Shown here piece after piece: positions 22,340 to 26,635 of a DNA stretch of 40,931 nt. The first letter of the stretch is position 1, and the number at the start of each line of letters is the position of its first letter. Origin of the DNA: Phenylobacterium sp. (GTDB taxonomy: Bacteria; Pseudomonadota; Alphaproteobacteria; Caulobacterales; Caulobacteraceae). Under the pieces are notes generated by a model. That model was not told the DNA's origin. It did no database searches and saw only the letters and a list, made by a program, of their open reading frames with translations. The translations under genes were made by a program, and so were the position numbers. Location: NCBI RefSeq assembly GCF_030651755.1, contig NZ_JAUSBZ010000042.1, positions 1 to 40,931 on the forward strand, in the 5' to 3' direction.

Positions 22340-23524
22340 TCAAGCCGCCTGGAGGTCGGCGACCAGGGACTCAAAGGCCCAGTCCAGCCAGGGCGTGAGC
22401 GCCTCCAGGTCGGAGGTCTCCACCGTGGCGCCGCACCAGATGCGTAGGCCCGGGGGAGCGTCGCGATAGCCGCCGATGTCCAGGGCCACGGCTTCCTTCT
22501 CAAGCGCTGAGGCCAGCTTCTTGGCGAAGTCGGCCTGGGCCGCTTCGTCCAGGGCCGTGACCTTCGGATCGACGACCTTCAGGCAGACCGAGGTGTTGGA
22601 GCGGAGGGCCGGATCGGCGGCCAGGAACTCGACCCAGTCTGTCTTTTCGACCCAGCGGGCCAGGACGTCGAGATTGGCGTCGGCCCGGCGGCGCATTTCC
22701 GTCAGGCCGCCGATGCGCTCGGCCCATTTCAGGGCGTCGATGGCGTCTTCCACACACAGCATGGACGGCGTGTTGATGGTGGCGCCCTCGAAGATCTCGA
22801 GATTCACCTTGCCGCCCTTGGTCATGCGGAAGAGCTTGGGCATCGGCCAGGCCGGGCTGTAGCTTTCCAGGCGGGCGACGGCGCGGGGTGACAGGATCAG
22901 GACGCCATGGGCGGCCTCGCCGCCGAGCGCCTTCTGCCAGGAGAAGGTGACCACATCGAGCTTGGCCCAGGGCAGGTCTTGGGCGAAGGCCGCGCTGGTG
23001 GCGTCGCAGATGGTGACGCCCTCGCGGTCGTCGGCGATGAAGTCGCCGTTCGGGACTCGCACGCCAGACGTGGTGCCGTTCCAGGTGAAGACCAGGTCGG
23101 CGTCCTTGCGCACCTTGGTCAGGTCCGGCAGCTCGCCATAGGGGGCCGACAGGACCTCGGCCTCGATCTTCAGCTGCTTGGTCACGTCGGTGACCCAGTC
23201 CTTGCCGAAGCTCTCAAAGGCCAGCAGCTGCACGGGTCGCGCGCCCAGCATGGACCACATGGCCATCTCGACGGCGCCGGTGTCGGAGCCCGGCACGATG
23301 CCGATCAGGAAGTCGTCGGGGACCTGCAGCACCTGGCGGGTGCGGTCGATGGCGTCCTTCAGCCGCGCCTTGCCCAGCTTGGAGCGGTGCGAGCGTCCGA
23401 GGACGGCGTTGGTCAGATTTTCGGGGGTCCATCCGGGGCGCTTGGCGCACGGGCCGGACGAGAATTCAGGGCGAGCCGGCCGCATGGCGGGCTTGGTATG
23501 GTCAGTCACTGCGATGTCTCCCAT
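22340..23524 (-). CDS. serC: Phosphoserine aminotransferase
   Basis: PLP enzyme converting 3-phosphohydroxypyruvate to phosphoserine with glutamate. The 394 residues contain the PLP lysine in [15 protein letters not shown] and the phosphate-binding [14 protein letters not shown] region near the N-terminus. The sequence is of the alphaproteobacterial type, different from enteric SerC. The ATG at 23524 gives the usual start; upstream in-frame codons lie in non-conserved sequence. It precedes serA in the same orientation. No phosphoserine phosphatase gene lies in the window. Confidence 0.96.
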
Positions 23525-23622
23525 CCTTGCAGATGAGCAGCGCCCCGTTGGGAGGGCGTGGCCCGCCGCGCACAAACGCCCATTTGCGCGTCAGGACAAG
23601 CAGTTTTTTGCTGAAAACCCCG

Positions 23623-24108
23623 TCAGATTGTCTCAGCGCGGGCAGGAATGACCGCCGCCTCAGCCCGCCGCCGCCGCCGGCTGGCGGCCCAGGTTCCCAG
23701 GGTCAGACAAGCCAGAATTCCGAAGAAGTTCAAATTGTTGATGACGACATAGATGGCGTCATGCTTCCGCTCCAGGACGAAGTAGGCAGCCTGAAGAGAG
23801 AATTGGACCGCCTGGAACAGCATGGCGCCGCCAAGCCAGAGGCTTGTGAAGCGTATAGCTAGCCCCAGAAACCCCAGGGCAAGAGCGCCTTCAAGGATCA
23901 TCCGCCCGACAAGAAAAGCCTCATACTGCCGCAGGCCATTCGAGTACGCGAAGAGGTCGCCAGCCGCGGTAACAACCGTGAGCGTGAGGATCAGGCCAGC
24001 GCCGACGCGTTCAGGGGCGCCACCACGGCAAAATGCGAAAGCGCACACCGTCAATAGTAGGGTCCAAAGGAGAACCCACGTCAGAATATAGATTGTGCCA
24101 GCAGTCAT
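23623..24108 (-). CDS. Four-helix membrane protein of unknown function
   Basis: A 161-residue inner-membrane protein that I do not recognise. Hydrophobic segments lie at about 5-27, 36-52, 66-88 and 92-112, possibly with a fifth at 120-140 (YVVINNLNFFGILACLTLG), and the C-terminus is rich in arginine (ASRRRRRAEA). Base composition is lower in GC than neighbouring genes, hinting at acquisition. Its only Shine-Dalgarno candidate (AGAGG, 7 bases before the ATG) is fully inside a perfect hairpin. The gene is flanked by serC downstream and a small conserved gene upstream on the same strand. Confidence 0.7.
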   Translation of the reverse strand: MTAGTIYILTWVLLWTLLLTVCAFAFCRGGAPERVGAGLILTLTVVTAAGDLFAYSNGLRQYEAFLVGRMILEGALALGFLGLAIRFTSLWLGGAMLFQAVQFSLQAAYFVLERKHDAIYVVINNLNFFGILACLTLGTWAASRRRRRAEAAVIPARAETI

Positions 24109-24143
24109 CGTTGCGCCTCTAAACCCGATTAGAGGCGCAACGA
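24108..24143 (-). promoter_or_regulatory. Perfect 13-bp hairpin sequestering the RBS of the membrane-protein gene
   Basis: Arms 24108-24120 and 24131-24143 are perfect inverted copies (TCGTTGCGCCTCT and its complement) with a ten-base loop. On the transcribed minus strand the 3' arm contains AGAGG seven bases before the ATG and ends on the first base of that ATG. No T-run follows, so it is not a standard terminator. It could block translation initiation or protect the 3' end of the upstream message. Confidence 0.75.
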
Positions 24144-24159
24144 AGTTAATCTATTGCAA

Positions 24160-24492
24160 TCAGCCGACGTCGCGCATGGCCGGGACGTTGCGGGCCGGCT
24201 CGAAGGGCTTGTCGGGGCCGACCAGCTTGGTGCGGATGCCCAGGCGGAGCTTGGCTTCGTTGAGTTCGCCATGCACGCCGACCATGGCGGTGCGGGCTTC
24301 GCCCAGCGCCTTGATGGCGTCCACCAGCTTGGCGGCGGCATCGTCGCCGAACACGGTGGAGACGCCGACATCCTTACGGGCCTTGAGCATTTCGGTCATC
24401 AGCTCGGTGGCTTCGACCAGGGCCGCGTCGACCGACTCTTCGGTCGCAAACAGCTTATTGGCCACACGCTGGGCTACAAACGCCTTTTCCAT
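24160..24492 (-). CDS. Small conserved helical protein of unknown function
   Basis: A 110-residue, soluble, mostly helical protein without a recognised domain. It is alternately charged (for example VDAALVEATELMTEMLKARKDVG) and ends in a short extended tail (KPFEPARNVPAMRDVG). A strong ribosome binding site (GGAGGG) precedes the ATG at 24492. Helix-rich, about 110 residues, no signal peptide: it could be a phasin-like or coiled-coil protein, but nothing establishes this. CtrA-like TTAA motifs lie 22-57 bases upstream, between it and the divergent hybrid kinase. Confidence 0.75.
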   Translation of the reverse strand: MEKAFVAQRVANKLFATEESVDAALVEATELMTEMLKARKDVGVSTVFGDDAAAKLVDAIKALGEARTAMVGVHGELNEAKLRLGIRTKLVGPDKPFEPARNVPAMRDVG

Positions 24493-24513
24493 GGGGGCAT
24501 CCCTCCTCGGGGG

Positions 24514-24549
24514 TTAACGGAATGCTAACCAAGCTAAACCAAAAGTTAA
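24514..24549. promoter_or_regulatory. Two near-consensus CtrA-type sites (TTAA-N7-TTAA-like)
   Basis: On the plus strand TTAA (24514-24517), seven bases, then CTAAC (24525-24529): one mismatch from TTAA-N7-TTAAC. On the minus strand TTAA (24549-24546), seven bases, then TTTA (24538-24535): again one mismatch. The stretch is AT-rich against a GC-rich background and lies between two divergent start codons. The consensus is that of the cell-cycle regulator CtrA; binding is inferred. Confidence 0.4.
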
Positions 24550-24682
24550 CGCCCGTCCTCCCTTGCAACCGTGACAACTTCACGCAGGGGTTGCGTCGCC
24601 TATTAGGCGAGTTCGAGAAGCGAATGATTAGGACTATTCCCTTAGAACGGGCGCTCGATCCTCCCAGGAGCTCGCCTCAATT

Positions 24683-26635
<1,953 letters not shown>

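Follow-up and report, generated by a model that had tools for sequence, protein, structure and literature searches.

A conserved hairpin over the hmrC start codon in Caulobacteraceae may silence read-through RNA from the hmrB side

In Caulobacter crescentus, the genes hmrCBA (CCNA_03324-03326) form a holdfast/motility signalling cluster that was published in 2024 (PMC11481889). HmrC is proposed to be a stress-sensing membrane protein at the top of the Hmr holdfast/motility pathway, HmrB is a small, helical protein with a proposed role in phosphotransfer, and HmrA is a hybrid kinase; jointly, these proteins set the balance between holdfast and flagellum (PMC11481889). The same paper presents the pathway as temperature-responsive and, citing others, reports that hmrC RNA rises with metals and in the cold and, in its section 12, that UzcR activates hmrC at the hmrC promoter. 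Elsewhere, a table of CtrA targets contains CC_3218 and CC_3219 (PMC3073932), and CCNA_03325 is named in a paper on GcrA (PMC3667746). In the available parts of PMC11481889, "hairpin" denotes a protein fold and "terminator" belongs to cloning (12 of 13 places), and no RNA element was noticed; the word "paralog" is absent from the paper. Our literature searches found no account of a hairpin at hmrC.

The window, by which we mean the whole 40,931-nt Phenylobacterium sp. contig analysed here, carries the same three genes in the same arrangement as C. crescentus. On the minus strand, hmrB (24160-24492, 110 aa, two predicted helices) is followed by a 51-nt gap, hmrC (23623-24108, 161 aa, five predicted helices) and serC, while hmrA (24683-26635, plus strand), which encodes a hybrid histidine kinase, is divergent. 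Judged by this synteny and by comparison with Caulobacter loci such as that of C. vibrioides (L191), the window gene is the Phenylobacterium orthologue of hmrC, with hmrB upstream, hmrA divergent and a predicted five-helix membrane protein as its product. The initial annotation, made from the sequence alone, had called the gene lower in GC and unrecognised. The first point is borne out (59.5% versus 68.4% for the whole window); the second is true of Pfam and NCBIfam, whereas the literature does describe the gene. In AlphaFold models, HmrC has five helices (mean pLDDT 91.9) and HmrB has two (84.6), and a fold search with HmrC against the PDB returned no match at E 0.001 or better. Homologues of HmrC, distant paralogues counted, occur in 92 of 101 genomes of the genus, and in all 29 family genomes, spread over 17 genera, that were picked for having hmrB. 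Between hmrA and hmrB lie two CtrA-like TTAA-N7-TTAA sites with one mismatch each (24514-24549, plus strand). Between hmrC and serC, the Rfam serC leader RF00517 is matched at 50.2 bits (23516-23568, minus strand), as it is in L014, L085 (cut off) and L191.

The hmrC start region is covered by a hairpin (24108-24143, minus strand) with two fully complementary 15-nt arms and a 6-nt loop. Its 5' arm spans 24129-24143 (read in the RNA from 24143 to 24129), and its 3' arm (24108-24122) contains AGAGG and has as its last base the A of the start codon (ATG, 24106-24108), which was placed by the ORF call and by alignment of relatives. The initial annotation had correctly seen a perfect hairpin that reaches the first base of the ATG, although its 13 bp are in fact 15. 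The upstream gene of 110 codons, hmrB, ends at 24160, with 16 nt between it and the first paired base. This is the longest perfect hairpin with a loop of 3-10 nt in the 40.9-kb window, the runners-up having 11 bp, and 20 mononucleotide shuffles of the window yielded two hairpins of 12 bp or more in total. The folding energy of the 81-nt region, a check that the annotation had proposed, is -33.5 kcal/mol against -16.9 ± 2.7 for shuffled sequences (z -6.05), and none of 200 shuffles was as stable. Chance is a poor explanation for such a hairpin. The absence of a T-run was also read correctly: no terminator-like site, in the sense of a G+C-rich stem followed by a T-run, was found at 24050-24600. 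At the hairpin, neither the window nor eight relatives reached the gathering threshold of any Rfam family.

We examined conservation in an alignment of 95 distinct leaders (A3), drawn solely from loci where the stem had been found. In this alignment, 94.9% of cells are paired, a percentage that the selection inflates while leaving the diversity of pair types unaffected, and 13 of 16 pairs show double-sided change. The covariation score is 0.538 versus 0.201 ± 0.010 after shuffling (0 of 500 as high); on four of the five measures no shuffle does as well, and on the other, the number of double-change pairs, 5 of 500 do. Within the inner 14 pairs, there are 104 G·U cells and 10 A·C cells, an excess that fits folding of the sense RNA. 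The compensatory changes on which the annotation had staked its hairpin are therefore present, with G·U tolerated. A palindromic operator for a dimeric regulator, with no role in RNA, would agree with the near-perfect symmetry beside a regulator-type box, yet paired changes occur freely in the arms, and on the sense side G·U cells are about ten times as common as A·C cells. This asymmetry disfavours a DNA operator alone, which we regard as very unlikely. As far as comparative evidence can tell, the hairpin acts as RNA and is a conserved structural element between two linked genes; pairing of the start region in the long RNA was found by prediction, by covariation and by comparison of start codons.

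This comparison of start codons placed a stem of at least 11 bp over the start in 138 of 156 hmrC loci versus 1 of 177 control ORF starts, where the hmrC start codons were picked with the stem in view, which favours hmrC, and the control starts are the first ATGs of ORFs of at least 200 codons, some of which may be wrong. Among 175 distinct loci with hmrB at most 700 nt upstream, 151 have a stem of at least 9 bp whose end falls -8 to +9 nt from an in-frame start codon; close homologues account for 101 (of 109) and distant ones for 50 (of 66). At a threshold of E 0.001, a covariance model finds a single match per genome in 134 of 390 genomes of the family, from 3 of 22 genera. Within the genus, 77 of 101 genomes match, with coordinates at hmrC leaders; another 13 weak hits fall on these same sites, read from the opposite strand. 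A stem of at least 9 bp at the hmrC start occurs in 193 of 200 loci with hmrB within 250 nt and in 0 of 15 without it, in counts that were not deduplicated and where the 15 include tandem second copies of hmrC, three duplicate pairs, loci at contig edges and members of the terminator clade described below. Deduplication was applied to covariation, box spacing, control starts, stop-to-stem distances, stem/terminator scoring and the counts of YTARRG. By these counts, the hairpin is tied to the hmrB-hmrC pair.

The dependence on hmrB, after which alone the hairpin is found, would also be expected if the stem-loop simply ended the hmrB mRNA, as an intrinsic or Rho-assisted terminator or as a block to exonucleases, and coincided with the start of hmrC by accident. 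Canonical terminators replace the hairpin in one clade, and the stems of the loci that we call clade C and module B have T-rich tails. On the other side, 72 of 96 tails in module A have three or fewer T in 8 nt (the remaining 24 have 4-5), the gap in the window holds no terminator-like site, and the position of the stem follows the hmrC start codon rather than the hmrB stop, which lies 13-55 nt away in module A (median 27). We judge this explanation unlikely, though worth keeping in view. The same distances bear on the suggestion in the initial annotation that ribosomes translating the upstream gene open the stem: the hmrB stop lies within 15 nt of the stem in 5 of 96 loci of module A, 0 of 36 of module B and 0 of 10 of clade C, which makes such opening look unlikely in most relatives.

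Opening by temperature, a further suggestion, does not survive folding predictions either. An RNA thermometer whose stem melts to admit ribosomes would suit a temperature-responsive pathway such as that of C. crescentus (PMC11481889). The predicted probability that AGAGG is unpaired is nevertheless 0.0002 at 37 °C, 0.0007 at 50 °C and 0.0045 at 70 °C, and the rise of hmrC RNA in the cold (PMC11481889) runs in the opposite direction. Since predicted melting does not fall within the physiological range, we reject this reading, whose probability we take to be close to negligible.

A nearly invariant TTAA lies ahead of the stem, and six bases before it stands TTGC in most loci and TTTC in others. 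In the window, this TTGC-N6-TTAA box (TTGCAATAGATTAA, 24159-24146, minus strand) is one base off the TTAC core of the UzcR consensus CATTAC-N6-TTAA (PMC8963506), and it is the only match in the window versus 0.09 expected. By pattern, the box is found in 95 of 103 loci of module A, and in 90 of these 95 the distance from TTAA to the start codon is 37-41 nt. According to the review PMC8963506, the UzcR-type motifs of urcA precede its transcription start by 43 or 53 bp. If the centre of the hmrC box lay at -43, transcription would start about 35 nt past TTAA, leaving 2-6 nt ahead of the AUG, and in the window we predict a start for hmrC's own mRNA at 24109-24113 (minus strand). The available text of the review omits the point from which these distances are measured, and other readings would give a start 26-45 nt after TTAA. 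Because the 5' arm ends at most about 20 nt after TTAA, the start falls beyond this arm under all readings of the 43/53-bp distance.

At the position where a -10 element would be sought, we observe the motif YTARRG, 23-25 nt after TTAA (85 positions among 99 loci). In the window, it reads TTAGAG (24117-24122, minus strand), a Shine-Dalgarno-like sequence within the 3' arm and a candidate -10 of hmrC's own promoter; the Caulobacter -10 consensus is GCTANAWC. The distance between YTARRG and TTAA is kept in most hairpin-free relatives. The initial annotation had described a Shine-Dalgarno sequence buried in the stem, and AGAGG is indeed paired in the 3' arm, but from its spacing and conservation the element is probably the -10 of hmrC's own promoter, besides or in place of a ribosome site. 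A genome-wide search for TTAC-N6-TTAA followed by CTANA gave no support for this promoter pattern: 3 of 101 genomes matched whether the spacing was the expected one or a control, and matches to reversed controls were as frequent or more so. A different -10 candidate, TCTAAT in the 5' arm, was dropped because the 5' side is no better conserved than the 3' side; it is also undercut by the hairpin-free clade, which retains CTAGAG.

The long perfect stem is absent from L180, L190, L235, L236, L239 and L242, and also from L165 and L179 at contig edges. In the six loci with hmrB in view, the gap between hmrB and hmrC is 180-357 nt. Strong stem-plus-T terminators were found by scan in L190, L235, L239 and L242 and are visible by eye in L236, L180 and L165, while a separate terminator scan reported one for L190 but nothing for L180; L190 also folds a weaker, imperfect stem that is no better than shuffles. 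All eight loci keep the box, and six have YTARRG at nt 23, where L180 has CCAGAG and L239 a shifted CTACAG. In L235, L236 and L242, the first in-frame start codon lies at least 95 nt after TTAA, so YTARRG cannot be the hmrC ribosome site there; L165 has an in-frame TTG at nt 35. The six terminator loci form one clade (SH-aLRT 96), with L235 and L236 as near sisters, and the exchange of hairpin for terminator thus counts as one event. For four loci on the tree, states were set by hand: L236 was entered as lacking the hairpin and having a terminator, L180 as having a terminator, and L231 and L241 as having a hairpin, judged imperfect by eye.

As the simplest account, we propose that the hairpin is a read-through silencer, or insulator, between hmrB and hmrC that RNA from hmrC's own promoter escapes, a reading to which we give somewhat better than an even chance. 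RNA begun upstream of hmrB and entering hmrC would contain both arms, which would pair and bury the start region, so that read-through RNA would yield no HmrC. The own promoter would combine a UzcR/OmpR-type box near -43 with a -10 inside the 3' arm and would instead start RNA after the hairpin, roughly 0-6 nt before the AUG. Such a nearly leaderless mRNA would be unable to form the hairpin and would be translated. The choice of promoter would then decide whether hmrC is translated and would uncouple HmrC output from hmrB. In this scheme we infer where the RNA starts, that UzcR acts on the box in this genus, and that read-through RNA is silent. The proposal draws on the reported activation of hmrC by UzcR in C. 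crescentus (PMC11481889); on the box and YTARRG being kept in the hairpin-free terminator clade, at some loci with distant start codons; on a stem that is tied to an upstream hmrB and placed by the hmrC start codon; and on stems of unrelated sequence before second hmrC-like genes that lie beside second hmrB-like genes.

These second copies take several forms. In Phenylobacterium, 17 of 20 second hmrB-hmrC pairs (L091-L110) have a start-site stem whose sequence is unrelated; a T-rich tail often follows it and a TCTGGCAGATT-like sequence often precedes it. Among further second hmrB-hmrC-like pairs in Caulobacteraceae genomes (L127-L136), 8 of 10 have their own start-site stem-loop. The second pair in the window's own genome (L230) has a stem that was not scored, its link to the start codon not being clear, and tandem second hmrC copies (L066, L067, L072, L122, L127, L129 and L130) have no long stem at the start. 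In a Phenylobacterium clade (L081-L090), most members have TCA(C/T)-N6-TTAA before the stem, and a T-rich stretch lies between stem and ATG, as if a terminator abutted the start codon. In another family of the order (L218-L221, four genomes), the HmrC match begins 26-37 nt after the hmrB stop; three of these loci were scored without the hairpin and the fourth was not scored. The box is absent from 33 of 36 loci of module B, and none of the 10 loci of clade C has YTARRG at the expected place; together with the T-rich tails, the sequences suggest that the stem in clade C and module B may act by termination. Clade C alone, whose 10 rows are too alike to be very informative, has double change in 2 of 12 pairs, which 18 of 500 shuffles reach. 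A further alignment (A4) holds 25 of the 36 module B leaders, and no counts were drawn from it.

Several observations speak against the silencer as we propose it. The terminator clade represents a single event, L077 has lost both hairpin and box without gaining a terminator, four loci were scored with a hairpin plus a terminator-like stem, clade C lacks YTARRG, most module B loci lack the box, and the search for the promoter pattern showed no enrichment. In addition, AGRGG precedes the first ATG by 6-9 nt in 84 of 95 leaders, a good spacing for a ribosome site, and could still be one. This spacing, the strong covariation and the rise of hmrC RNA in the cold and with metals (PMC11481889) would also fit a true translational switch, in which all hmrC mRNA carries the 5' hairpin and cold or metal stress leads a trans factor (a cold-shock protein, an RNA helicase, a small RNA or another RNA-binding protein) to open it. 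Against such a switch, the box and the -10-like motif fit a start after the hairpin, no alternative pairing partner was noticed by eye, and the hairpin is missing where hmrB is not directly upstream and, despite the box, in the terminator clade. We give the trans-acting switch a small but appreciable chance. The initial annotation had supposed a two-gene unit with structural RNA control to be undescribed; the genes are published, while a description of the hairpin was not found.

More tentatively, and with somewhat less than an even chance in our estimation, the silencer may belong to a broader, cell-encoded promoter-choice switch. One 36-nt sequence would serve in DNA as the -10 region of a stress promoter and in read-through RNA as a hairpin that buries the start; it would be kept across Caulobacter- and Phenylobacterium-type genera and recur, in unlike sequences, at the majority of duplicated hmrB-hmrC pairs, which would let a sensor gene placed behind another gene answer to its own promoter alone. 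It is seldom known how an inner gene of an operon escapes read-through without a preceding terminator, and a covarying hairpin over an inner promoter, swapped for a terminator in one clade, makes the question testable in C. crescentus. If true, the proposal would explain how HmrC is expressed apart from HmrB.

The final stem of the serC leader overlaps the serC ribosome site, and the corresponding Rfam family (RF00517) offers a comparison at the next gene of the same locus, whereas the hmrC hairpin reaches no Rfam threshold. The closest parallel in mechanism is found in the leaders of the phage T4 genes e, I-TevI, soc and 49, where a hairpin on long read-through RNA buries the start region and transcripts from a promoter near the ribosome site miss part of the hairpin and are translated (PMC3014915, PMC2988022). 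The hmrC hairpin differs in belonging to a bacterial chromosomal signalling gene and in its conservation across genera, and the hmrC transcript would be nearly leaderless. It also differs in that the proposed -10 of hmrC lies in the 3' arm, whereas the late promoter of T4-type phages lies in the region of the 5' strand.
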